From contig JAATFH010000348.1 of the NCBI GenBank assembly GCA_015655315.1, forward strand, positions 1 through 41,353: 41,353 bases of DNA, in the 5' to 3' direction. This DNA is from Terriglobales bacterium. Its GTDB lineage: Bacteria > Acidobacteriota > Terriglobia > Terriglobales > Acidobacteriaceae. Under the pieces are notes generated by a model. The model saw only the letters and a program-made list of their open reading frames with translations, was not told the origin of the DNA and ran no database searches. Below are positions 15,743 through 32,595 of this stretch, piece after piece (the stretch's first letter is position 1; the number at the start of each line of letters is the position of its first letter). The position numbers and the translations under genes were made by a program.

Positions 15743-18178
15743 GTGTTTATGCTTCATTACTGGCGTTTTTTACGGGTAAATTCGATGCTTTTGTTGGCAG
15801 CGATCAGTTACGCTCAGCCGATACAGTGGCCGGTTTGCAGCTCCCCTTCGAGTGCTACCCGCATAACCATCAATGGAACAGTCTCCGATGCGACGGGCGC
15901 CCGTGTCACCTCGGCCACCGTTCAGGTTGGATGCGGGAATCGTGTGCAGCAGGCCCGAACAGATGGCACAGGGCACTTCACGCTTACGGTTCCGGAGGGC
16001 GAGTACAAGCTGCAGGTCGAGGCTGCCGGTTTCGCAGTCTTCACGAAGGACCTCAGTGTCAGCAACAACTCGTCCAACGCCGACGTGACACTTTCCGTGC
16101 AAAACGCATCGAACACCGTCACGGTCCAGGCAGGAGCGGGGTATGTGGCGGACGACAGTTCGCTGGCCTCGAAGACTGATACTCCATTGCTTGAGACCCC
16201 CCAGACGATCTCGGTCATCACGCGCGACCTGATGGATGCGCAGGCTCCGCAGAGTATCAACGAAGCACTCCGCTACGCACCGGGTGTCGTAGCCGAATCG
16301 CAAGGCACCACGTCTTCGTTCTGGAATGCCAGCAGCCTGCAGCTCCGCGGCTTCATCCCCAATGTCTATCAGGATGGCCTGACCGACGACGAATATGGAA
16401 ACACGCTGCTCGACGCGTACTTCTATCAGCGCATCGAGGTGTTGGAAGGACCATCGTCGGTGCTTTACGGGCAGGGGAATCCCGCAGGCATCGTCAACGT
16501 GGAGAGCAAGCGGCCGATGGCCACGACACTACGCGAGGTGCAACTTGGCTTCGGAACCTATGGTCGATACGAGGGGAACTTCGATTTCAGCGGACCGCTG
16601 AAATCTCCTCGCATGCTTTACCGCGTGACGGGAGTCGGCTTCACCGAGGGCTCCCAGACCTGGTTCGTTCACCCCCAGCGTCTCGCGATTGCTCCGGCGC
16701 TGACCTGGATTCCAGACTCAAAGACGAGCCTCACGTTCCTTACCAACTACACCTACAATCCCGAGGTCGGAGCCTACGCCAATGTGCCTGCTCTCGGCAG
16801 CGCACTCCCGAACCCCAATGGGAAGATCGCACCCGGTTTCTTTCCCGGTGATCCGAACTTCAACATGACGAAGCAATCCTTCATTCAGGCGGGAGATGTC
16901 TTCACCCGCGCCTTCGATCATGACTGGCGGATCGAGCAGAACTTTCGCTTTACCGGCAACAAGGACCACGCCAACATGATCTGGCCGGAAGACCTTGAAG
17001 CGGATAACGCCACACTGGATCGGTATACCTTCATTCGCCACACAATCTTCAACTCAACGCTCTCGGATCAGCGGGTCGCGAAGGTACTCCAGACGGGCAA
17101 GATTCGACAGACGCTTCTGGCGGGCGTGAACTACACCCATTACAGCGAGCACTGGAACTGGGGGGACGGGGATATTGCTCCGATCAATGTCTTCCATCCC
17201 GTCTATCACCTGCAGATTGCCACGCCGGACATTACAGGTATCGAGAGTACTCTCGATAACCAGACCGGCATCTACTTTCAGGACCAGACATCCATCGGTC
17301 GTCTCCGGCTCTCCTTTGCGGGCAGACAGGATTGGCTCTCCTATAACGACACGACAACCAACGTTGACCCGGTGGATGGAAATTCAACAACGGTGACGAA
17401 GCAAGACGCCGATAAATTCACTGTCCGGACTGGAGCCGTCTATCTGATCGGGCGCGGATTCGCTCCCTACTTCAGCTATGCGACTTCGTTCCAGCCGGAC
17501 ATCGGTCTGACGGAGTCCGGCACCCCGCTGCCGCCGACGACCGGCAAGCAGTATGAAGGCGGCATCAAGTACCAGCCCGAACACACGAACATGCTCATCA
17601 CCGCCGACGTCTATGATCTGACACAGCAGAACGTGGGCACGCCAGACCCGCAGAATCCAAACTTCATCATCCCCATCGGAGAGATCCGCTCGCGCGGCTT
17701 CGAACTGCAGGGGCATTCGACCTTCGGCCATCGCGTCAGCCTGATTGCCTCCTACGCGTACACCGATTCCAAGTACAGTAAGTCAAACGCAGCTGGAATT
17801 CCCCTCAATGGGACCGACCCGGAATCCACGCAAGGCAAATATCAGTACGGCGTTCCCCTCAACCTGGCTTCCTTCTGGGTGGACTACAACCTGCCGTACG
17901 CCTCGCTGAATGGATTAGGTGTAAGCGCAGGCAGCCGATTCGTTGGATCGAGCTGGGGCGACAACGTGAACTCGTTCAAGGTTCCGGGCGCAACGCTCTT
18001 CGACGGCGCCCTGCACTATGACTTCTCCAGCGATTCCGGCGTACTGCACGGAGCGCGTCTTCAGATCAATGCCAGCAATATCGGCAACCGCACCTATGTG
18101 GCCTCCTGCTACGCGACCGATGGCTGCTACTACGGTGCGAAGCTCACCGTTTACGGAACGATGCGGTATCGCTGGTAA
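15743..18178 (+). CDS. TonB-dependent siderophore receptor with N-terminal carboxypeptidase regulatory-like domain
   Basis: INGTVSDATGARVTSATVQV domain; plug TPLLETPQTISVITRDLMDAQAPQSINEALRYAPGV; C-terminal beta strand ending YGTMRYRW. Confidence 0.93.
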   Translation: MFMLHYWRFLRVNSMLLLAAISYAQPIQWPVCSSPSSATRITINGTVSDATGARVTSATVQVGCGNRVQQARTDGTGHFTLTVPEGEYKLQVEAAGFAVFTKDLSVSNNSSNADVTLSVQNASNTVTVQAGAGYVADDSSLASKTDTPLLETPQTISVITRDLMDAQAPQSINEALRYAPGVVAESQGTTSSFWNASSLQLRGFIPNVYQDGLTDDEYGNTLLDAYFYQRIEVLEGPSSVLYGQGNPAGIVNVESKRPMATTLREVQLGFGTYGRYEGNFDFSGPLKSPRMLYRVTGVGFTEGSQTWFVHPQRLAIAPALTWIPDSKTSLTFLTNYTYNPEVGAYANVPALGSALPNPNGKIAPGFFPGDPNFNMTKQSFIQAGDVFTRAFDHDWRIEQNFRFTGNKDHANMIWPEDLEADNATLDRYTFIRHTIFNSTLSDQRVAKVLQTGKIRQTLLAGVNYTHYSEHWNWGDGDIAPINVFHPVYHLQIATPDITGIESTLDNQTGIYFQDQTSIGRLRLSFAGRQDWLSYNDTTTNVDPVDGNSTTVTKQDADKFTVRTGAVYLIGRGFAPYFSYATSFQPDIGLTESGTPLPPTTGKQYEGGIKYQPEHTNMLITADVYDLTQQNVGTPDPQNPNFIIPIGEIRSRGFELQGHSTFGHRVSLIASYAYTDSKYSKSNAAGIPLNGTDPESTQGKYQYGVPLNLASFWVDYNLPYASLNGLGVSAGSRFVGSSWGDNVNSFKVPGATLFDGALHYDFSSDSGVLHGARLQINASNIGNRTYVASCYATDGCYYGAKLTVYGTMRYRW

Positions 18179-18191
18179 ATAAGGGGACGCG

Positions 18192-19355
18192 ATGGCTCAA
18201 CTGAGTGCAAAGACCGTAAGGAACTGGTACAGGCTTCACAAGTGGACCAGTCTCATCTGTACCGCATTGCTATTGATGGCTTGTATTACCGGCCTTCCGC
18301 TGGTCTTTCAGGATGAACTCGATGCCCTGCTCGAACCGCATGTAGCGCCTGCCAAAGTGGAGGCAGGCGCTACGACGGCCAGCCTCGATCCCATGATTGC
18401 GCAGGCTCAGGCCAGGTTTCCTGCGCTTCATCCTTTCTCCATCGGATTTGACGACGATGAGCCTCGTATCTTCGTCAACATGAGTCCTTCCGATGATCCG
18501 AAAAAGGGAGAGATTCGCCAGATGATCTTCGACGCTCACACCGGCAAGCTCCTGGAGGTTCCCAAGGATGGCTTCGACCTCACGAGTTTCCTGCTGCAGT
18601 TGCACAGCGAAATCTTCCTCGGCCTTCCGGGCGAGTTGACGATGGGCGTGATGGCTCTGACCTTCGTTCTCTCACTTGTCTCCGGCGCGCTCGTCTACGG
18701 GCCGTTCATGCGCAGGCTGGAGTTCGGTACCTACCGCCGCAACGGAGCCAAACGAACACGGTGGTTCGATCTCCACAACCTTCTCGGGATCGTCACTCTG
18801 GCCTGGGCGCTGGTCGTCGGTGCGACCGGTGTGATGAATGCCTTGTCCACTCCGCTCTTCGGTCTGTGGAGAGCCCAAACACTCCCGAAGATCCTGGCCC
18901 CTTATCACGGCAAGCCTGTCCCCACTCACTTCCGATCGGTCGATGAATCAGTAAAGCAGGTCTCGGCTGCGCTCCCGGAGATGGAGGTGACAGCCGTTGT
19001 CTTCCCAAATTCAGTGTTCAGCAGTCCCCGGCACTATCTTGTCTGGGCCAAAGGTAAGACACCGGTCACGTCTCGACTCGAGACCCCCACTCTCGTCGAT
19101 GTCGAGAATGGCGCTGTCACGATGTCGGGAGGACTTCCCTGGTATCTGCGCATCCTGGAGCTTTCGCGACCGCTCCACTTCGGAGATTATGGTGGGCTCC
19201 CGCTCAAGATCATCTGGGGACTGTTCGATACTGCGCTGATCGTTGTGCTCGTCAGTGGACTCTATCTCTGGTTGTCGAAGCGCAAATCCCCGATTGAGCG
19301 AGAGCTGAATCACCTGGTCGAGCGGGAATTACTTCAGCAGGCTGGAACGGTATGA
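18192..19355 (+). CDS. PepSY-associated TM (iron-regulated) membrane protein
   Basis: NWYRLHKWTSLICTALLLMACITGLPLVF; FDLHNLLGIVTLAWALVVGATGVMNALS; C-terminal TM segment. Confidence 0.9.
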   Translation: MAQLSAKTVRNWYRLHKWTSLICTALLLMACITGLPLVFQDELDALLEPHVAPAKVEAGATTASLDPMIAQAQARFPALHPFSIGFDDDEPRIFVNMSPSDDPKKGEIRQMIFDAHTGKLLEVPKDGFDLTSFLLQLHSEIFLGLPGELTMGVMALTFVLSLVSGALVYGPFMRRLEFGTYRRNGAKRTRWFDLHNLLGIVTLAWALVVGATGVMNALSTPLFGLWRAQTLPKILAPYHGKPVPTHFRSVDESVKQVSAALPEMEVTAVVFPNSVFSSPRHYLVWAKGKTPVTSRLETPTLVDVENGAVTMSGGLPWYLRILELSRPLHFGDYGGLPLKIIWGLFDTALIVVLVSGLYLWLSKRKSPIERELNHLVERELLQQAGTV

Positions 19356-19676: not shown

Positions 19677-21608
19677 TTATTTCCCGGCGTGAGCCACATT
19701 GGCCATTGGCGCATTCTTTGCGGCAATCCCGTCATAGACGCTGGGCACAAGGCCTTTTCCCTCTTCAATGACAAAGAAACGGTCAACGTGCGGCAGAGAG
19801 GCGTGCTCCACAGTGCCATCCGGCCAGCGGACCTCGACAGCATCTACCGTAGTTGCCTGCCCCAGACCGAAATGGAGGCGTTGGTCGTTCGACGATTCAT
19901 AGCTTTCACCGCTCATGACATCCGCGCGCTGCCGCATTCCTCCAGACGTCAAATAAGCAGTAGCTCCGACTGCATCCCGAGGCCCCTTCACCCCTCCCTG
20001 AAGCACAATGCCTACCCAATGGTTCTTGTCGTCATTCACGTTGCGCAGCAGGACCGGTGTATGGTCGATGCAGTTCACGACGACATCGATCTTGCCGTCG
20101 TTGAACAGGTCGCCGAAGGCCGCTCCCCGGCTGGGAATGACATCGGCGAGGCCTGTGCCTTCAACAGCCGGAACGACTTCGAATTTCCCTCCATGATTCA
20201 CATTGTGAAAGAGCAGGGGACGCTCTGCGTAGCTGGTGCCCCAGTTATGGTGATCAACCTGCGGCAGCAGATGCCCGTTCAGGGTCATGATGTCCTTCCA
20301 GCCATCGTTGTCGTAGTCGATAAACTCGGTCGCCCAACTCAGGAACGGATAGGTGACCTCTGCGATACCCGCCTCTGGAGTAATCTCCGAGAAGTTCCCT
20401 CCGCCTTCGTTGCGGAAGAGTGTGTTGTAGTCATCCGAGAAGGTAGTGGTGTAGAGATCGACCTTTCCATTATTGAGATAATCGCCGACAGCCAGGCCCA
20501 TGTTGGCTGTCTCACGAGCGTCTTGATTGAGCGCAAAGCCTGAGTAGATGCTTGCATCTTCGAAGGTTCCGTCACCCTTGTTCATATACAGATAGTTCGG
20601 CGAAGAGTCGTTGGAAACCAGCAGATCCACCTTGCCGTCGTTATCGACATCGACGAAAGTGGAAGAAAATCCGTAGTAGCCCTTCTTGTCGCTGACGCCG
20701 GCCTGCTCACTGACGTCAGTGAAGGTCCCGTCGCCATTGTTATGAAAGAGATGATCGGGTTCGCCGGGGAGACCGCGTGGGCCGCACACCACCTTGATTC
20801 CGCGAAACTGGCAGAATGCGGCGTCTACGCCATCGGAACCAGATATGGGAGGGCGTTTAAGGTCATAGTGGACATATCCCGGAACAAAGATATCCAGCCG
20901 TCCATCGCCGTCATAGTCGCCAAATGTCGACCCGTTCGACCAGTTGCCGAGAGTGACGCCTGCCTTTTCTGCCACATCCGTGAATGTGCTGTCATGATTG
21001 TTGTGGTACAGGCGGTTCTTTCCCAGGTTCGAGACAAAGAGGTCAGGCCAGCCGTCGTTGTCGTAGTCGCCTACTGCGACCCCGAACCCCCAACGGCCAT
21101 TGGTCACACCTGCTTTTTCCGCTACGTCAGTAAATGTGCCATCCCGGTTGTTGTGAAAGAGAGCAGCATGGGGAGGCTCAGCTTTCCCATCCATAGCTTC
21201 ATAGGTTGAGCCATTCACCAGGTAAATATCGATCCAACCATCATTGTCGTAATCGAGCAGCCCGACGCCGGAACCCGAAACTTCAATAATGAAGTCCTTC
21301 TTCAGAGTTCCCATCACATGATGCCACTTGGTCAATCCCGCCTTATCCGAAATGTCCCGGAAGACAATCGGACCTACCTTGACGAATCCTCCCGCGGTAA
21401 TCGGGCGTTTCTCCGCGTCAAGAACAGGTGCAAATTCACCCGCCGTTGCCGAGCCTCCTCTCCGCTGCGTCGTTGATCTGTCCCCATAGACCGGGGAGGA
21501 GGGTGGCTGCTGCCCGTTCGCTCCAGATACTGCACAGAAGAAAAACGCCCCGAATGCGGTACTTAGGAAGAATCTCCTCGGGAAGACTTTACGCAGATGC
21601 AAAAGCAT
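19677..21608 (-). CDS. Secreted FG-GAP/VCBS repeat protein with C-terminal UnbV/ASPIC domain (CRTAC1-like)
   Basis: Repeated DYDNDGWxDLFVSN and FHNNRDGTFTDVAEKAGV; C-terminal ESYESSNDQRLHFGLGQATTVDAVEVRWPDGTVEH. Confidence 0.93.
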   Translation of the reverse strand: MLLHLRKVFPRRFFLSTAFGAFFFCAVSGANGQQPPSSPVYGDRSTTQRRGGSATAGEFAPVLDAEKRPITAGGFVKVGPIVFRDISDKAGLTKWHHVMGTLKKDFIIEVSGSGVGLLDYDNDGWIDIYLVNGSTYEAMDGKAEPPHAALFHNNRDGTFTDVAEKAGVTNGRWGFGVAVGDYDNDGWPDLFVSNLGKNRLYHNNHDSTFTDVAEKAGVTLGNWSNGSTFGDYDGDGRLDIFVPGYVHYDLKRPPISGSDGVDAAFCQFRGIKVVCGPRGLPGEPDHLFHNNGDGTFTDVSEQAGVSDKKGYYGFSSTFVDVDNDGKVDLLVSNDSSPNYLYMNKGDGTFEDASIYSGFALNQDARETANMGLAVGDYLNNGKVDLYTTTFSDDYNTLFRNEGGGNFSEITPEAGIAEVTYPFLSWATEFIDYDNDGWKDIMTLNGHLLPQVDHHNWGTSYAERPLLFHNVNHGGKFEVVPAVEGTGLADVIPSRGAAFGDLFNDGKIDVVVNCIDHTPVLLRNVNDDKNHWVGIVLQGGVKGPRDAVGATAYLTSGGMRQRADVMSGESYESSNDQRLHFGLGQATTVDAVEVRWPDGTVEHASLPHVDRFFVIEEGKGLVPSVYDGIAAKNAPMANVAHAGK

Positions 21609-22812: not shown

Positions 22813-25461
22813 TTGCGGCAACGATCGGCGACCGCTGAGGAACCGATGTTAAATAGCAAAGCTGGAAGGCTCTTGCCCAGAAGAAGCACAGTCGTATTCG
22901 CTCTCTGCCTTTCTGCAATCGCCTCAGTTATCCCCCTGCTAACAGCGCACGCTCAGCGGGATGCGATCTCACCAGAAGCTGACGTGGGAATGATTGTCTC
23001 CCGCACAGCCGAAGACGCCGAGGCAGTCTTGAAGGAGCTCAAGGCAGGAACCGACTTTGGTGTGCTGGCAAAAGAACGATCCATCGATCCGACCTCAAAC
23101 GACGGTGGATATATTGGACGACTGAGCACGGCACAGCTGCGTCCCGAGTTGCTGGAAGCCCTGAGCGGGGTGAGAGTCGGAGAATTTACGAATATCGTCC
23201 ATGTACCTGCCGGATTCGCCATACTTACGATCCTGCCAACGGCTCCGAACACCCAGGATTTGGATGCGAAACGAATCATTTCGCTTACCTCGTCGAAAGT
23301 CGTGAGGCAAAATCTCATCGTCGCGGGCATGGACGAGGCAGATTCCGTCTTCCAGCAATACCCCAAGCCGGATGGCTGGAATCGCGATTTAAGTCAGCCG
23401 TGCAGTATCCGGATGCAATCGCACCAAGCGGGGGTAGAGAGCCTGGAGCGCCTGCTGCCACCGGCCCAGGATCAAGCTACCGGCGGATTCAATCCGGTCG
23501 AATTGTTGAGGGGGCATGCGGCGCTGGCTCAGTTGCACGCATTCATGGGAGACATGGATAAGTCGATCAGCGAGTGGAGAATCGCCTATCAAATTGCCAA
23601 GTCCGGCGTCCCCAATGCAATCCCATACCTTGAGGAAAGCCTTGGCGTCAGCTATCTGCACCTCTCCGAGATGGAAAACGGGATCTATCGTGATTCGGGG
23701 AGCCAAGATTTTTTCCCTCCTCTCAATCCCGGCGCACATTACGCCAAGCGGCAGCACTCGGAGCTCGCCGTTCAGTATTTTCTGAGCTACCTGGCACAGA
23801 AGCCGGACGACTACGAAGTAAGGTGGCTGTTGAATCTGGCTTACATGACACTAGGAGGCTACCCGGCGGAAGTTCCGCCGAGATACTTGATTCCGTTGAG
23901 CAGCTTCGAATCGAAAGAGGACCTCGGGCGCTTTACAGATGTTGCCCCGAGTGCCGGACTGAATGTCTTCTCCGAAGCAGGCGGGGTACTTGTAGACGAC
24001 TTCGATAACGACGGATTGTTGGACGTCGTCACGTCGAGTATGGACATGTGTGCGCCACTGCACTACTTCCATAACAGCGGAGACGGAACGTTCACTGATC
24101 GAAACGTCCAAGCGGGACTATCTGGCCAATTGGGTGGGCTCAACCTGATGGAAACCGACTATAACAACGATGGCTGCATGGACATCCTTTTCTTGCGAGG
24201 GGGGTGGGAACTCCCGATGCGACGATCATTGTTGCGCAATAACTGCAATGGAACCTTCACCGATGTGACCGTGCAGAGCGGTCTTGGCGGAGCCATCACC
24301 GCGACGCAAACTGCAGTATGGGCCGATATGGACAACGATGGCTACCTCGACCTGTTTATCGGGAATGAGAATGCACCAAGCCAGCTGTTTCGTAATAGAG
24401 GCGATGGAACTTTTGAGGACATTTCGCATGCCGCCGACATCGATAAAACCGCATTCACGAAAGGAGTGGTTGCAGCCGACTACGACAATGATGGGTACGT
24501 CGATTTCTATGTGTCGAATGGCAGCGGAGCCAACTTTCTTTACCGGAACAATCATGACCATACCTTTACTGAAATAGCCAGACAGGCGGGAGTACAGGCA
24601 CCATACTTCAGCTTCGCAACATGGTTCTTCGACTACGACAACGATGGCTGGCCGGATCTTTTTGTCACCACTTACTTCAGTTCCATCGACCAGATAATGC
24701 GCAGCTATCTTGGGCTCCCCATTTCAGTCGAGACACTCAAGCTCTACAGAAATCTGCACAATGGCACCTTTCAGGACGTAACTGCGCAGACTGGTCTCGA
24801 CAAAGTGCTCATGCCTATGGGGGCAAACTTTGGCGACGTGGACAACGATGGCTTCCTGGATATCTATCTAGGTATGGGTAACCCATCATTTGCTTCCCTG
24901 ATGCCTCATGTTCTACTGCGCAACAAGGACGGCAAGGCTTTCGTCGACATCACGGCTTCCTCCGGCACCGGTGAATTGCATAAGGGGCACGGTATCGCAT
25001 TTGCGGACCTGGAGCGGAATGGACATGAAGACATTGTTGCCGAAATTGGCGGCGCGGTGCCTTCCGATAAGCACACGCTGCGTCTTTTCAAAAATCCGGG
25101 GAATGACAATGACTGGATCAATATCCATCTCACCGGGGTGAAGAGTAATCGAGCCGCAGTGGGCGCTGAGATCAAGATCGCAGTCCAAAACGATGGAGGT
25201 GTCACACGTTCGATCTATCGCACGATAGGAGATACGAGTTCATTCGGGGGAAACCCGATGGAGCAACACATCGGGTTGGGGCATGGAGCGCGCATTCTTG
25301 GTCTCGATGTGTGGTGGCCCGCGACGAATACGCGACAACACTTTACCCAGGTGGATAAGAACCAATTCATTGCGATCAAGGAATACGACAAGGACTATAC
25401 GAAGATCGAGCGTCAGACATATCGATTCGGTGGAAGCACGACTGTTACTGCGGCAAAGTAG
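22813..25461 (+). CDS. Secreted multidomain protein: parvulin-like domain, TPR-like region, VCBS repeats, C-terminal UnbV/ASPIC (paralog A)
   Basis: EAVLKELKAGTDFGVLAKERSIDPTSNDGGYIGRLSTAQLRPELLEAL (parvulin-like); DDFDNDGLLD, DYDNDGYVD, DVDNDGFLD; SFGGNPMEQHIGLGHGARILGLDVWWPATNTRQHF. Confidence 0.9.
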   Translation: MRQRSATAEEPMLNSKAGRLLPRRSTVVFALCLSAIASVIPLLTAHAQRDAISPEADVGMIVSRTAEDAEAVLKELKAGTDFGVLAKERSIDPTSNDGGYIGRLSTAQLRPELLEALSGVRVGEFTNIVHVPAGFAILTILPTAPNTQDLDAKRIISLTSSKVVRQNLIVAGMDEADSVFQQYPKPDGWNRDLSQPCSIRMQSHQAGVESLERLLPPAQDQATGGFNPVELLRGHAALAQLHAFMGDMDKSISEWRIAYQIAKSGVPNAIPYLEESLGVSYLHLSEMENGIYRDSGSQDFFPPLNPGAHYAKRQHSELAVQYFLSYLAQKPDDYEVRWLLNLAYMTLGGYPAEVPPRYLIPLSSFESKEDLGRFTDVAPSAGLNVFSEAGGVLVDDFDNDGLLDVVTSSMDMCAPLHYFHNSGDGTFTDRNVQAGLSGQLGGLNLMETDYNNDGCMDILFLRGGWELPMRRSLLRNNCNGTFTDVTVQSGLGGAITATQTAVWADMDNDGYLDLFIGNENAPSQLFRNRGDGTFEDISHAADIDKTAFTKGVVAADYDNDGYVDFYVSNGSGANFLYRNNHDHTFTEIARQAGVQAPYFSFATWFFDYDNDGWPDLFVTTYFSSIDQIMRSYLGLPISVETLKLYRNLHNGTFQDVTAQTGLDKVLMPMGANFGDVDNDGFLDIYLGMGNPSFASLMPHVLLRNKDGKAFVDITASSGTGELHKGHGIAFADLERNGHEDIVAEIGGAVPSDKHTLRLFKNPGNDNDWINIHLTGVKSNRAAVGAEIKIAVQNDGGVTRSIYRTIGDTSSFGGNPMEQHIGLGHGARILGLDVWWPATNTRQHFTQVDKNQFIAIKEYDKDYTKIERQTYRFGGSTTVTAAK

Positions 25462-25479
25462 TTCGCTCGGAGGAAAGGA

Positions 25480-26361
25480 ATGATGAACCGTCCGGTTTTG
25501 CTGGTCTTAGCTATATTGCTCGTCACGACACCTGTCTGGGGTGCTTCAGAACAACACGCCGCAAGCGGAATTGTGCTTCAGGTGGTTCCAGCACATCGGT
25601 CCCTTGTAGTGTCCTGTGAGGCTATACCCGGATACATGGACGCTATGGAAATGTCCTACACCGTGCGTGACCCTAAAGCGCTGGTCGCCTTAAAGCCAGG
25701 CGCGAAGGTTCAATTTATCATCGTCAAGCGGGGCAAGCTACTGTATGCGGACAGTATTCATGCGGTCACGGCAGCAAGTTTCGAATCGGAACCGATGGAA
25801 GCTGGAGGTCTGACAGCCCTCCATAATGCAATGAATCCTTCAGCCGCCGCAAAGGTAGTGGCAGTAGGAAAGCAGGTGCCGGACTTTGCCCTGATCGACC
25901 AGGCAGGCAAGGAGATCCATCTATCTCGACTACAAGGCAAGGTCATAGCACTTACTTTTGGATATTCCCGCTGCCCCAATCCGGACTATTGCCTCCGTCT
26001 CTCCAACAACCTGGCCCGGGTGGAGAAACGCTTTCATGACCGGGCAGGACGCGATCTGATATTGCTGACCATCGCGATAGACCCGCAGCACGACCAGGGC
26101 CCGGCACTGACCGCTTATGCCGGTGTCTGGAAGGCCGACCCCGCGGTTTGGCACTTCTTGACTGGTCCTCTGCCCGAGGTGAAACAAGTAGCCGCGATGT
26201 TTGGCATGAACTTCTGGAGTGAGGAAGGCTTGCTCACGCATTCACTGCACACGGTCATCATCGATCGCAAGGGGCAACTGGTAGCGAATATCGAGGGCAA
26301 CCAATTTACCGCCATGCAGCTAGGCGACTTGGTGCAGACCGTCATGAATCGCCCGTATTGA
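25480..26361 (+). CDS. CusF-like copper-binding domain fused to SCO1/SenC thioredoxin-fold protein
   Basis: SGIVLQVVPAHRSLVVSCEAIPGYMDAMEMSYTVRDPKALVALKPGAKVQFII (CusF_Ec-like); FGYSRCPNPDYCLRLSNNL, TIAIDPQHD, THSLHTVIIDRKG (SCO). Confidence 0.9.
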   Translation: MMNRPVLLVLAILLVTTPVWGASEQHAASGIVLQVVPAHRSLVVSCEAIPGYMDAMEMSYTVRDPKALVALKPGAKVQFIIVKRGKLLYADSIHAVTAASFESEPMEAGGLTALHNAMNPSAAAKVVAVGKQVPDFALIDQAGKEIHLSRLQGKVIALTFGYSRCPNPDYCLRLSNNLARVEKRFHDRAGRDLILLTIAIDPQHDQGPALTAYAGVWKADPAVWHFLTGPLPEVKQVAAMFGMNFWSEEGLLTHSLHTVIIDRKGQLVANIEGNQFTAMQLGDLVQTVMNRPY

Positions 26362-26523
26362 TTTGCAACTCAACCAGCCAAAGTGAATAACAGCCTTCCG
26401 ATGCCGAACGTATGTCTTGACTGAGTGGCGGACCAGAGCATCCATCGAATGATGGATACATATATCTATCTTCTGGCGCAAGACATTCCTATCTCGATCT
26501 GACTAAGGTTTTTATTAACCTGC

Positions 26524-29148
26524 GTGCAATTCATGTTCTGCCGTAAGTCAGGAAGACGATTGTTCAATAAGAACTTGGTCGTGCTCATACTCCTGTTCCT
26601 GACGAGCCTTCCCTTAATATTTTCGTCATCGATACAGGCTCAACAGGATGGAGCCTCGCGCGAAGTCGAGGTAGGCATCATCGTTACCAGCACTGCCGAA
26701 GAAGCTGAAAGCATTCTGAAGCAACTCAAGGCAGGCATGGACTTTGGTGTCCTCGCAAAAGAAAAATCTATCGATCCGTCCGCCAACGATGGCGGATACA
26801 TGGGACGACTGAGCCCCGCGCAACTGCGTCCGGAACTGCAGGCTGCTTTGCATGGGCTGAAGGCCGGACAGTTTACAGATATTCTCCATATACCATCCGG
26901 CTTTGCCCTCCTTACTGTTTTGCCTGCGGCGCCAAATACGCAGGACCTTAACATAAAGCAAGCCTTGCCCAAGGCCGTGCTCAATACCATCAGTATTTCG
27001 GGCATGGATGAAGCCGACGCCGCCGTCCTGCAATATCCCAAACCGGATGGCTGGAACAGCGACCTGCGCCAATCATGCGCGATACGGACACAATCGCATC
27101 CTGAGGCCATAGAGGACATCGAGCGATTGCTGGCCACGGATGCGGCTCAGCCTGCCGGCCAGGTCGCTCCTCTCGACCTGCTGAATGCTCATGCAGCGCT
27201 GGCCCAGCTCCACGCATACGTGGGAGACATGAACAAGTCCATCGACGAGTGGAAGATCGCTTACCGGATTGCTCAGTCCAGCGTTCCCGATTCGGTGTCC
27301 TACCTTCAGGAAGCACTGGGAGTGAGCTATCTGCATCTCTCCGAGATGGAGAACGGAGCGTATCGCAACTCGGGCAGCCTGGATATCTTTCCTCCACTGC
27401 ATCCGGGCGCGCACTTTGAAAAGCAACAGGACTCGAAGCTTGCGATTCAGTATTTCCTGAAGTATCTGGAACAGAAGCCGGACGAACAAGAAGCGCGGTG
27501 GCTACTGAACCTCTCTTACATGACTCTGGGCGGATATCCATCGCAGGTACCGGCGAAATATCTAATTCCTCTAAGCAGCTTCGAATCGAAGGAGAGCATT
27601 GGACGCTTTACGGATGTTGCCCCGGCCGCCGGATTGAATGTCTTCGCTGGAGCCGGCGGAGCGATTGTGGACGACTTCGATAACGACGGACAGCTCGATG
27701 TCATGACTTCGAGCCTGGACGACTGCGAGCCGCTGCACTATTTCCATAACAACGGTGACGGCACCTTCACGGATCGAACCTTTCAAGCCGGATTGTCGAA
27801 CCAGCTTGGCGGTCTCAACATCGTCGAGGCTGATTACAACAACGACGGGTGCATGGATTTTCTGGTGCTGCGTGGGGGATGGGAGTTCCCGCTGCGCAAG
27901 TCGCTGTTGCGCAACAACTGTAATGGGACCTTCACCGATGTGACCCAGGAAAGCGGCCTGGGTGGAACTGTCACCGCGACGCAAGCGGCGGCGTGGGCCG
28001 ATATCGACAACGATGGCTATCTCGACCTCTTCATTGGCAATGAAAATACTCCCAGTCAGCTATTTCACAACCGGGGCGACGGAACGTTCGAGGATATCTC
28101 GCATGCGGCAGGCATCGATAACACCGCATACAGCAAAGGAGTGGCCGCGGCGGACTATGACAACGATGGATATGTTGATTTTTATGTATCGAACTCGGGC
28201 GGCGCCAACTACCTTTACCACAACAATCATGACCGCACATTTACCGAAATAGGCCGGCAGGCAGGCGTTCAGGCGCCCTACTTCAGCTTCGCCACATGGT
28301 TTTTCGACTACGACAACGATGGCTGGCCCGACCTTTTTGTCACAAGTTTCTACAGCTCCGTCGACCAGGTGATACGAAGTTACATGAGATTGCCCACTTC
28401 CGGCGAGACGCTTAAGCTCTATCGAAATCTGCACAACGGTGCCTTTGAGGACGTGACCGCTCAGGTTGGCCTCGACCGGGTGTTTATGCCCATGGGATCG
28501 AATTTTGGCGATGTCGACAATGATGGCTTTCTCGATATCTATCTTGGAGTGGGACAACCGTCGCTTGCCTCGCTGATGCCGCACGTTCTGTTGCGAAACA
28601 AGGCGGGAAAGAGCTTCGTCGATATCACGGCTTCGTCGGGCACGGGTGAATTGCATAAGGGCCACGGCATTGCATTCGCCGATTTAGAGCGGCGCGGCCA
28701 TGAGGACATCATTGCGGAAATCGGCGGTGCCGTACCCTCCGATAAGCACGCGTTGCGTCTTTTCGAGAATCCGGGGAATGACAATGACTGGATCAATGTC
28801 CGCTTGACTGGAGTGAAGAGCAACCGGGCTGCTGTGGATGCGCAGATCAAGATCACGGTCGAGAACGATGGACGTGCCACACGTTCCATCTACCGCACAG
28901 TAGGCGACACAAGTTCTTTTGGCGGAAACCCCATGGAGCAGCACATCGGTCTCGGCCATGGGGCACGCATCACCGCTCTCGATGTGTGGTGGCCGGCGAC
29001 GAATACGCGGCAACACTTTGCCCAGGTGGATAAAAACCAGTTCATTGCGATCAGGGAATTCGCCAGCGACTTTACGAAACTCGATCGGCAGCCATATCGC
29101 CTGGGCGGCGACAAGACGTCACCGCAGCAAAGTGATTCGCGCAGGTGA
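26524..29148 (+). CDS. Secreted multidomain protein: parvulin-like, TPR-like, VCBS, UnbV/ASPIC (paralog B)
   Basis: Colinear over its full length with the 22813-25461 protein; signal peptide NLVVLILLFLTSLPLIFSSSIQAQ; GTG start (ATG alternative at 26533). Confidence 0.9.
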   Translation: MQFMFCRKSGRRLFNKNLVVLILLFLTSLPLIFSSSIQAQQDGASREVEVGIIVTSTAEEAESILKQLKAGMDFGVLAKEKSIDPSANDGGYMGRLSPAQLRPELQAALHGLKAGQFTDILHIPSGFALLTVLPAAPNTQDLNIKQALPKAVLNTISISGMDEADAAVLQYPKPDGWNSDLRQSCAIRTQSHPEAIEDIERLLATDAAQPAGQVAPLDLLNAHAALAQLHAYVGDMNKSIDEWKIAYRIAQSSVPDSVSYLQEALGVSYLHLSEMENGAYRNSGSLDIFPPLHPGAHFEKQQDSKLAIQYFLKYLEQKPDEQEARWLLNLSYMTLGGYPSQVPAKYLIPLSSFESKESIGRFTDVAPAAGLNVFAGAGGAIVDDFDNDGQLDVMTSSLDDCEPLHYFHNNGDGTFTDRTFQAGLSNQLGGLNIVEADYNNDGCMDFLVLRGGWEFPLRKSLLRNNCNGTFTDVTQESGLGGTVTATQAAAWADIDNDGYLDLFIGNENTPSQLFHNRGDGTFEDISHAAGIDNTAYSKGVAAADYDNDGYVDFYVSNSGGANYLYHNNHDRTFTEIGRQAGVQAPYFSFATWFFDYDNDGWPDLFVTSFYSSVDQVIRSYMRLPTSGETLKLYRNLHNGAFEDVTAQVGLDRVFMPMGSNFGDVDNDGFLDIYLGVGQPSLASLMPHVLLRNKAGKSFVDITASSGTGELHKGHGIAFADLERRGHEDIIAEIGGAVPSDKHALRLFENPGNDNDWINVRLTGVKSNRAAVDAQIKITVENDGRATRSIYRTVGDTSSFGGNPMEQHIGLGHGARITALDVWWPATNTRQHFAQVDKNQFIAIREFASDFTKLDRQPYRLGGDKTSPQQSDSRR

Positions 29149-29172
29149 AGAGACTGCCGCAATGCACAACAT

Positions 29173-32100
29173 TCAAAAGACCAGCCGCGCGCTCAACTGA
29201 ATTTCTCGCCCTGGTGAAGTCACTTCGGTGATCGAGCCGAAGCCTGCGGTATTTACAAAGCGGTTCGGTATGCCCAGATTTGTGTGATTCAGCGCGTTGA
29301 AAAACTCTCCGCGAGTTTCGAGCTTTAATGTTTCAGCAAGGCTGAAGGTGCGCACCAAGGCCAAGTCTGTCGTCTCCATGCCTGGCCCATAAATGGAGTT
29401 GCGTCCAACATTGCCGAATGTGTATGCCGGTGGAGTGGCAAACGCCTGCGGGTTAACCCATGTCGTTGCGCTGTGAGTCCCCGGCCCATAAATTTTCTGC
29501 CCCGTGGTGTTGGCGCGAATAGGATTTTCGCCCACTGCTGTGCCTGCATTGGCTGTGTCGCCAAATACAGAGATGGTAAGCGGAAAGCCGCTCTGTACCT
29601 GGAAAACAGTGGAGGCTCGCCAATTCTCCGTCATGATCCGGGTGAAATTGTTATGCGACCATGCAGGAATGTCATAAACAGCGCTCAATGAAACGCGGTG
29701 CTTTATGTCACAAGCTGGCCCCTTCTCCGCTTGCAGATCATAGTTGTTCTGCGGGATTGCGGCTTCAAACATCGGAGAGCGAAAGTCGGGGGCGTTCGTG
29801 AGGCTCTTGGCGAAAGTGTAGTTGGCCAAGAGGCTCAACCCTCGCGCATAGCGACGACGCACATTCACGTAGCCTGCGTCATACCAGCTCTGCGCGCTGT
29901 TTTCGAGATAGTTGATCGTGCTAACCGAGATGGTTGTGCTTGCAACAGTTATGTTTGAAGGAAAGGTAGTGTTTGGAACAAAGCTGACTTTGGGATGTGG
30001 ACGCCGCGGTTGAATCAGGCCTTGCCCAGGCTGCGCATTGTTGATGAGGTGTGCGCGCTGCAGATGGAATCCTCCTGAGCCGAGATATCCAATCTCCAGC
30101 GTCGTCTCCTTGCCAAGAGATTTTTCAATGGAGGCGCTCCATTGCTGGATGTACTGCGACTGCGGATGCACCGGCATGGCCGTAAAGCTGACTGCAGTCG
30201 TGCCTCCAAGCACCGGTGGCGCGAAATCGAAGGTCTTGATGGAAGGCGTGAAGTTGTCGCTCTGTGCTGTCTCCGCAAAAACCTTCGGAACATTATGACG
30301 CTGATTGCACCAGGTATTCATGTCGACCGGCGTGTAGAAAATACCGTAGGCGGCGTGCGCGACAATACCAAATTTCGGCAGGCTCTGGGCGATGCCGATG
30401 CGTGGAGCGAAGTTGGCCCGGCCAGGGTAGGCCAACCCTTCAGGGTAGCCGTTCTGTCCACCGATAAAAATGGATGGCACGCCATCGCTGTCGAAGGTGA
30501 GGTTGCTATTTGTGTACTTTATATCTGTCAGCGCGCTCATGTACTCGTATCGCAACCCAATGTCGAGCATGGTCTTCGAGCCGATACGCCATGTATCCTG
30601 CGCGTATCCGTCCGCATACCATTGGCGCAGGTTCATTTGCGGATCGCCAGCCTGTAACTGCCGCGCGACTGGCAGGCCAAGGAGAAAGCTGGCCAGGCCC
30701 GATCCTGTGCCATCGTTTGCGCCGATGTCCGTCGTGAAGCCGTTGGTGAACTGATAATAGCCGCGGCCCTGAACGTAGGCCCACATGGGCCAGATGAACC
30801 ACTGGTATGCGCCGCCAAACTTCAGGCTGTGCTTTCCATACTGCCAGTTCAGCGCATCGCGCCCTTCGATGAGAGTGCTCCAGGCATGCATGGGCGTTGC
30901 AAGCCAGCTATCTCCAAAGGCGGAATATCCCTGAACAGTGAAATACGGGGCGCCCCACGCACGCGGACCGCCGTAGCTCGCACCCTGAATGCCCAGTTCA
31001 TCTACGATGTCGTTCTTGTAAGCGCTTTCTGTGAGGTGGCCCATGCTGAGCCGTGAGATGGCCAGCGTGGTCATGTTAAGCAGATGTGGCGTGAATATCT
31101 GGTTCCACCCCAGAACGCCCTGCTGTGAAAGGTTGTCGTGGGTGTATCCGAAGCCGGGAAGGTTCTCCGGCATGAAGCCGTGCTCGCCACCGGCGCTATA
31201 GCGAATGAACGCCGTATTGCCATTGTCGAAGTCATGGTCGAAGCGCAGCGTTCCCTGGTCGTTGTACATCAATTCGTTGCGGACATCGAGGTAGTTGTTG
31301 GCATCGTTCCCCGCGCCAACGACTGTTGGCTGCCCCATCATGGTCATGCCGTCCATGCCCATGCCCATCATCACGTTTGGCCGTGGCACATATTTCTGCA
31401 GCATGATGGCAGCGGCCTGGTTCAGGCGGTCGGGAGGGATAACATTCATCATGCCGTTATATTGGAACTGCTGGCGCGTGAACTGTGGATTGCTGGGGCT
31501 TACCGGCAACTTAGGGTTGTAGTTCGGATTAGCCTGGGTCGTCTGAGGGTCGTAGATGTCGAGACCGCTCATGCTGAAGTCGCCGCTTACTTCTTCCGCA
31601 GTCGGCACGGTATCGGTCATCGTCATGGCTGCGGCGTGCCGCAGGCCTTCATAATTGACAAAGAAGAAAGTATGCCTGCTCTTGCCCAGCAGCGGGCCGC
31701 CAAAGGCAGCGCCGAAGTTGTTCTGTACCAGATGCTTCGAACCGCCCATGTCATTGAAGGAGTGCGCATCCAGCGCGCCATTGCGCAGATACTCGTATAC
31801 AGCTCCATGAAAACGCGATGTGCCGGAGCGCGTAACTACATTGACCTGTCCACCACCTGCTCCGCCCATGTCCGCGGAATAGCTGCCGATTTCAATCTGG
31901 AATTCCTGCACGGCATCGGGAGAGGCGCTCAGGTTTTGTGTATTGAATGTTGGATCGGTGTTGGTTGCACCGTCGAGCAGGAAGTAATTGGCGTTAGGAC
32001 GAGTGCCGCCGATGCTCACGGCAGAGCGCTGGCCGGGACGCCAGTAGAGAGGATTCATATCTCCAGTCTGCGCGCCATGACTAATATGTGAGCCGGGAAC

Positions 32101-32595
32101 GGTGAGCATCAGGTCAACCAGCATGCGTCCATTGAGAGGAAGCTGCTGGACCGAACGACGGTCCACAACTTCGCCTACGCTCGCATCGGTGGTCTTCAAC
32201 ATTTCCGCCGAGCTGACGGCGGTAACGGTTTGCTTCTCGCCGCCTATCTGAAGCTCCACATCAACGGCTGCTTCCTGTCCTACTTCCAGCTGCAATTCCT
32301 GATCGGATTCAGCGAAGCCTGTATGCGTAACCTGCAGTTCATATTCGCCCGGGAACAACCCCGCTGCCTCATAATATCCACTATCGTTGGAGACAATCTC
32401 CCGCTTTGCCCCAGTAGCTGTCGCGGTCAGCCGCACGGTGGCGCCTGGAATGGCCCGGTGTTGCGGGTCATAAACAGACCCACGCACGGCTGCGTAGTTA
32501 GATTGTGCAAAAACGGAGACAGGCGAAGCCAGAAGAAGGCTGACGCATAGAAACTGCCTGAACATGGCTGGCACTCCTGAAAAGTATCTCGTCAT
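29173..32595 (-). CDS. Oar-like TonB-dependent receptor with carboxypeptidase regulatory-like domain and a Met-rich segment
   Basis: VRGSVYDPQHRAIPGATVRLTA; plug VDRRSVQQLPLNGRMLVDLM; MMGMGMDGMTMMG; C-terminal GREIQLSARLVF. Confidence 0.92.
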   Translation of the reverse strand: MTRYFSGVPAMFRQFLCVSLLLASPVSVFAQSNYAAVRGSVYDPQHRAIPGATVRLTATATGAKREIVSNDSGYYEAAGLFPGEYELQVTHTGFAESDQELQLEVGQEAAVDVELQIGGEKQTVTAVSSAEMLKTTDASVGEVVDRRSVQQLPLNGRMLVDLMLTVPGSHISHGAQTGDMNPLYWRPGQRSAVSIGGTRPNANYFLLDGATNTDPTFNTQNLSASPDAVQEFQIEIGSYSADMGGAGGGQVNVVTRSGTSRFHGAVYEYLRNGALDAHSFNDMGGSKHLVQNNFGAAFGGPLLGKSRHTFFFVNYEGLRHAAAMTMTDTVPTAEEVSGDFSMSGLDIYDPQTTQANPNYNPKLPVSPSNPQFTRQQFQYNGMMNVIPPDRLNQAAAIMLQKYVPRPNVMMGMGMDGMTMMGQPTVVGAGNDANNYLDVRNELMYNDQGTLRFDHDFDNGNTAFIRYSAGGEHGFMPENLPGFGYTHDNLSQQGVLGWNQIFTPHLLNMTTLAISRLSMGHLTESAYKNDIVDELGIQGASYGGPRAWGAPYFTVQGYSAFGDSWLATPMHAWSTLIEGRDALNWQYGKHSLKFGGAYQWFIWPMWAYVQGRGYYQFTNGFTTDIGANDGTGSGLASFLLGLPVARQLQAGDPQMNLRQWYADGYAQDTWRIGSKTMLDIGLRYEYMSALTDIKYTNSNLTFDSDGVPSIFIGGQNGYPEGLAYPGRANFAPRIGIAQSLPKFGIVAHAAYGIFYTPVDMNTWCNQRHNVPKVFAETAQSDNFTPSIKTFDFAPPVLGGTTAVSFTAMPVHPQSQYIQQWSASIEKSLGKETTLEIGYLGSGGFHLQRAHLINNAQPGQGLIQPRRPHPKVSFVPNTTFPSNITVASTTISVSTINYLENSAQSWYDAGYVNVRRRYARGLSLLANYTFAKSLTNAPDFRSPMFEAAIPQNNYDLQAEKGPACDIKHRVSLSAVYDIPAWSHNNFTRIMTENWRASTVFQVQSGFPLTISVFGDTANAGTAVGENPIRANTTGQKIYGPGTHSATTWVNPQAFATPPAYTFGNVGRNSIYGPGMETTDLALVRTFSLAETLKLETRGEFFNALNHTNLGIPNRFVNTAGFGSITEVTSPGREIQLSARLVF

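Follow-up and report, generated by a model that had tools for sequence, protein, structure and literature searches.

A conserved pairing of a CusF-SCO fusion with a CRTAC1-like propeller protein in Acidobacteria suggests a putative copper chaperone and its client

SCO proteins are known assembly factors for the CuA site of cytochrome oxidase, and the CusF of E. coli acts as a chaperone in copper efflux (PMC7558416). For bacterial proteins of the UnbV/FG-GAP (CRTAC1) type, the papers that we searched offered no function; they described no copper role for the CRTAC1 family and held nothing relevant on UnbV together with SCO1 or copper. A CRTAC1 family protein is mentioned in passing near hydrazine-synthase-like genes (PMC12758564). 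Proteins of this type are numerous in Acidobacteria, with 19 UnbV matches in the incomplete genome studied here (5.3 Mb, 77.5% complete). Among named organisms, this genome is closest to Acidobacteriaceae and other Acidobacteria.

We analyzed a stretch of 41,353 nucleotides from this genome (the window), in which an earlier note had proposed a copper-handling locus. Three genes follow one another on the + strand: copy A of a large propeller protein (hereafter P), a CusF-SCO fusion, and copy B of P, with gaps of 18 bp and 162 bp, respectively. A TonB receptor gene on the - strand converges on B at a distance of 25 bp. The reading frames, strands and domains described in the note held up (by Pfam, PPIC, FG-GAP_3 and UnbV_ASPIC in A and B; CusF_Ec and SCO1-SenC in the middle gene), as did its motifs (MDAMEM, CPNPDYC, TH and the receptor stretch MMGMGMDGMTMM), with corrections to start codons. 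The better start of A is the ATG at 22846, with GAGG just upstream by eye, rather than the TTG at 22813; that of B is the ATG at 26533, which by eye has no clear Shine-Dalgarno sequence, rather than the GTG at 26524. The fusion has a good Shine-Dalgarno sequence, GGAGG, just upstream. No promoter scoring above chance was found. The features are as follows:

22846-25461, + strand: P copy A, with signal peptide, probable pseudo-parvulin, TPR, FG-GAP propeller and UnbV_ASPIC; reading frame open from TTG 22813
23005-23229, + strand: parvulin (PPIC) domain of A, residues 65-139 (Pfam PF00639)
25156-25368, + strand: UnbV_ASPIC domain of A (Pfam)
25480-26361, + strand: CusF-SCO fusion, predicted to be exported, 293 aa, putative dedicated copper chaperone of P (Pfam CusF_Ec and SCO1-SenC)
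25636-25653, + strand: CusF Cu(I) motif MDAMEM (M53, M56, M58), from conservation of the Met residues
25972-25992, + strand: SCO CX5C motif CPNPDYC (C165, C171), both Cys invariant in the P-linked fusions
26239-26250, + strand: SCO His ligand H254 and diagnostic H257 (HSLH), from conservation
26533-29148, + strand: P copy B, architecture as in A; reading frame open from GTG 26524
26692-26919, + strand: parvulin domain of B (Pfam), with Ala for the His of G[FWY]H
27334-27336, + strand: B H271 in the TPR region, diagnostic candidate copper ligand, from clade-specific conservation
28654-28665, + strand: B H711-K-G-H714, where a propeller strand starts; candidate copper ligands, from conservation and the secondary structure of the model
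28747-28749, + strand: B H742, diagnostic candidate copper ligand, from clade-specific conservation
28831-29043, + strand: UnbV_ASPIC domain of B (Pfam)

Further upstream, the window encodes a second UnbV/FG-GAP subtype (19677-21608, - strand), relatives of which occur near many of the P loci surveyed below, and an ordinary iron-uptake pair (15743-19355, + strand), in which the gene of a PepSY_TM protein comes after that of an FhuA-like siderophore receptor.

Both copies of P have parvulin (PPIC), TPR and UnbV_ASPIC domains and FG-GAP repeats, plus a signal peptide assigned by eye; the TPR domain, between parvulin and propeller, was absent from the earlier description. The PPIC domains score 39.7 and 45.9 bits against a curated Pfam cut-off of 21.7, and the FG-GAP repeats and UnbV domain also exceed their family cut-offs. 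The parvulin is nearest to those of SurA, PpiD and PrsA. It is probably not catalytic, since in B the sequence GFA aligns with GWH of the second SurA domain, so that the His of the catalytic G[FWY]H motif is replaced by Ala; it is probably a peptide-binding or inactive domain. An AlphaFold2 model of B (mean pLDDT 92.6) has murine CRTAC1 (PDB 9etn) as its best Foldseek match, with a TM-score of 0.74 normalized to the target.

A search with B retrieved 80 loci, all titled Acidobacteria except two that carry gammaproteobacterial names (L013, L086). CusF-SCO lies within the fetched stretch of 62 of the 80, usually directly downstream of P, a strongly positive result for the gene neighborhood suggested by the earlier note. 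The remaining 18 comprise four whose stretch ends at a contig edge on the 3' side (L048, L079, L081, L087), four with CusCBA-type genes, three whose P lacks the copper-type residues, and seven whose fetched stretch lacks both CusF-SCO and CusCBA (L016, L017, L019, L052, L058, L072, L073). We analyzed 59 pairs of neighboring genes. P and CusF-SCO share a strand in 56 of them and converge in three; the CusF-SCO reading frame starts no more than 64 bp from the P stop, or overlaps P, in 54 of the 56 (large overlaps being a product of start choice). The partners are also inherited together: P and SCO distances correlate with a Mantel r of 0.77 (maximum of 0.21 in 2000 permutations), the nearest SCO neighbor is among the three nearest P neighbors in 53 of 59 pairs, and in the L025 genome, which has two complete pairs, each retains its matching partner. 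Across 399 genomes of the class, CusF-SCO is found in 32 of 38 with copper-type P (assigned by score and context) and in 20 of 361 without; the Fisher p of 1.4e-27 ignores relatedness and overstates independence, because the genomes are related. Gene clustering of the loci revealed no third member. A conserved two-gene unit of P and CusF-SCO is strongly supported.

Other genomes usually have a single P followed by a single CusF-SCO. Cultured relatives with the P/CusF-SCO pair include Terracidiphilus gabretensis S55, Occallatibacter savannae AB23, Acidicapsa dinghuensis 4GSKX and Silvibacterium bohemicum S15. The two-paralog arrangement that the earlier note had made part of its system is a local feature and is not a property of the system. 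A and B are 73% identical and in the tree are each closest to the other, with a support of only 0.54, and the pair looks like a local duplication around one CusF-SCO gene. Two contigs titled Rhodanobacteraceae (L013) and Nevskia soli (L086) carry the P/CusF-SCO pair; mislabelling or mis-binning is likely, since families of neighboring genes are common to L013 and acidobacterial loci. At L064 (9322-12678), one strand encodes the parvulin part of P and SCO and the other the body of P, reflecting either a rearrangement or an assembly artefact.

The pairing tracks a residue signature of P better than it tracks the parvulin domain, as the clade of L076, L078 and L080 has the parvulin and lacks both the copper-type residues and CusF-SCO. 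As controls, we fetched 20 regions that match B from additional genomes of the phylum. A P with parvulin was present in two (one with CusF-SCO, one cut by a contig end), and CusF-SCO was absent from all 18 fetched loci with parvulin-less homologues. Defining as diagnostic a position at least 85% conserved in 75 copper-context P proteins and at most 15% in 24 other homologues, we found only 11 such positions, five of them His or Cys (H271, H711, H742, C443 and C466 in B numbering; Fisher p 1.4e-5 for enrichment). H271 is present in 96% of copper-context proteins and none of the others (R in 23 of 24), H711 in 88% and none (Q in 24 of 24), and H742 in 95% and none (mostly Y or F), while H714 is near-invariant in both sets (75 of 75 and 23 of 24). 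Copy A keeps every candidate residue: its C197, C413, C455, C478, H283, H723, H726 and H754 correspond to C185, C401, C443, C466, H271, H711, H714 and H742 of B.

In the model of B, H714 is at the start of a strand and H711 just ahead of it; a short strand further along that blade contains H742. The general topology of propellers places the strand ends holding H711/H714 and H742 on one face. Judging from the sequence and the order of secondary-structure elements alone, H271, H711, H714 and H742 would lie close together in three dimensions; C401, on a loop of the His-bearing face, could form a pair with C185 in the TPR region. H711 and H742 are not strictly required, because a subclade that mostly keeps CusF-SCO (L049, L055, L060, L063, L068, L085, L086) has lost H711 (to P, A or S) and, in part, H742. 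Eleven loci with all or most of the His set carry neither CusF-SCO nor CusCBA in the stretch, four of them at a contig edge on the 3' side.

The fusion has retained its predicted copper ligands. CusF_Ec matches with an E value of 1.7e-10 (41 bits, curated cut-off 27) and SCO1-SenC with 1.4e-16 (61.2 bits, cut-off 22.8). The CusF Met residues are kept in 63-65 of 67 P-linked and in 27 of 27 other CusF-SCO proteins; C165, C171 and H254 are invariant in all 67 P-linked fusions, and 62 of the 67 carry H257, against none of the other 27. The SCO motif is CX5C, whereas in an alignment with solved SCO relatives theirs is two residues shorter (CX3C). P-linked fusions group in the tree as a single, weakly supported clade (0.23).

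Taken together, these patterns make a copper function of the unit well supported, as judged from conserved ligands and gene context. The best, if unproven, reading of the mechanism is that CusF-SCO loads P with copper. Exported to the periplasm, the fusion would take up Cu(I) through the CusF Met motif, pass it to the CX5C...H site of SCO and deliver it to the neighboring P, possibly also reducing thiols of P. P itself would be an exported TPR and CRTAC1-like propeller protein with an N-terminal pseudo-parvulin that binds copper at a His cluster (H271, H711, H714, H742), where the TPR faces the propeller. It could then act as a cuproprotein, whether oxidase, electron carrier or copper sink; in the source genome, the gene of this presumed client would have been duplicated around a single chaperone gene. 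That CusF-SCO is a copper chaperone and P its client seems to us an even call, and we regard P as a putative cuproprotein family previously not linked to copper. A bolder possibility, which we advance only tentatively and consider doubtful, is that P is the first family of a new class of copper enzymes, built on a CRTAC1-type propeller with a His site shared between propeller and TPR and served by a dedicated CusF-SCO loader, the same module also serving an unrelated His-rich TPR family. That TPR family was met next to CusF-SCO fusions without P in other genomes: in 11 loci (L172:8379-10007 and 10 further loci among L170-L183), the gene after the fusion encodes a different exported TPR protein, with numerous invariant His residues and the motifs HPG..HY.IH, HMPGH and HHxHN. 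This independently suggests that CusF-SCO partners bind metal. No relative of known structure was found for the His-rich protein, and homology between its TPR and that of P was unsupported (probability 8.6% in a profile comparison).

Copper could instead be handled for tolerance, with P as a periplasmic copper sink or a scaffold passing excess copper on to efflux and CusF-SCO as a buffer that CusCBA replaces in some lineages. In its favor are the role of CusF in E. coli efflux and four P loci without CusF-SCO (L012, L022, L042, L082) that carry CusCBA-type RND genes beside P, an association that also speaks for a copper link of P itself. In the window, the genes that were scanned include no CusA-type RND. 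However, most P loci have no efflux gene nearby; copper delivery is the more typical role of the SCO half, and conserved single His positions look less like a storage region than like a defined site, so we consider tolerance unlikely. The exchange for CusCBA-type genes at those four loci also weighs against a role in folding or redox, whereby the SCO half, from a thioredoxin-fold family, would be a thiol-disulfide reductase for the pairs C185-C401 and C443-C466, with copper incidental. Copper-context P does have four conserved Cys, and some losses are joint (C185 with C401 in several loci, C443 with C466 in L066 and L069). A pure reductase would need neither the conserved CusF Met triad nor the SCO His ligand, however, and L040, L050 and L084 keep CusF-SCO yet lack C185, C401 and C466; we find this explanation distinctly improbable.

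We give very little credence to the remaining two readings. SCO proteins being CuA assembly factors, the fusion might be a general chaperone of cytochrome oxidase that stands beside P by chance or hitchhiking, but its pairing and co-inheritance with P speak against this, and no oxidase gene recurs at P loci. It is probably not an oxidase chaperone because the source genome has a separate SCO, with canonical CX3C, within a respiratory cluster; a congener's copy adjoins coxB and coxA, and CuA loading is probably served by this SCO of its own. The earlier note had proposed copper acquisition with the Met-rich TonB receptor (Pfam CarboxypepD_reg and OMP_b-brl_4) as a component, and the close convergent gene and its Met-rich run would fit. 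At the 80 related P loci, however, receptor matches do not exceed about 33% identity. Orthologues (50-64%) occur in 12 of 60 searched relatives; most of these genomes lack a CusF-SCO of the P-linked type, and in the three having both, the genes are on different contigs. The Met-rich run is inserted in a loop and varies from absent to long among orthologues. We therefore rejected the receptor as part of the unit, which leaves acquisition unsupported, and delivery to the propeller protein fits better. A different copper-related pairing occurs at L154 (7388-10689) and L158 (5254-8561), where a TonB receptor gene directly adjoins another CusF-SCO gene or shares 1-4 bp with it, a point in favor of acquisition.

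If copper loading of P by CusF-SCO is correct, a dedicated chaperone would give one UnbV/FG-GAP clade a testable biochemical role and candidate ligands. It would also suggest that SCO proteins have clients other than cytochrome oxidase and that CusF-SCO is a loading module that can be reused, and the two-gene unit in soil Acidobacteria points to a putative, undescribed family of copper-binding proteins.

Among described systems, the fusion resembles SCO1/SenC proteins of CuA assembly (Thermus 2k6v; Bradyrhizobium Blr1131, 4wbj) in its thioredoxin-fold SCO domain, its two Cys and one His ligand and its predicted export, but it adds a CusF domain, has CX5C rather than CX3C and an extra H257, and is genetically linked to a propeller protein, not to an oxidase. 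It shares with CusF of CusCFBA efflux a CusF domain with conserved Met ligands, here joined to SCO; by hand comparison, the positions that we take to be W44 and H36 of E. coli CusF are Met and mostly Cys, respectively, in CusF-SCO fusions. NosZ, galactose oxidase and other copper propeller enzymes also combine copper with a beta-propeller, a conceptual likeness; P belongs to a different propeller family, with no sequence relation found to these enzymes and no cupredoxin domain or Tyr-Cys cofactor identified in it. P shares the PPIC domain of SurA, PrsA and PpiD but differs in the GFA that replaces the motif His. Finally, P is like CRTAC1 and the UnbV_ASPIC FG-GAP family in its propeller and UnbV fold, and is set apart from them by its N-terminal pseudo-parvulin and TPR, its clade-specific His and Cys residues, and its copper neighborhood.
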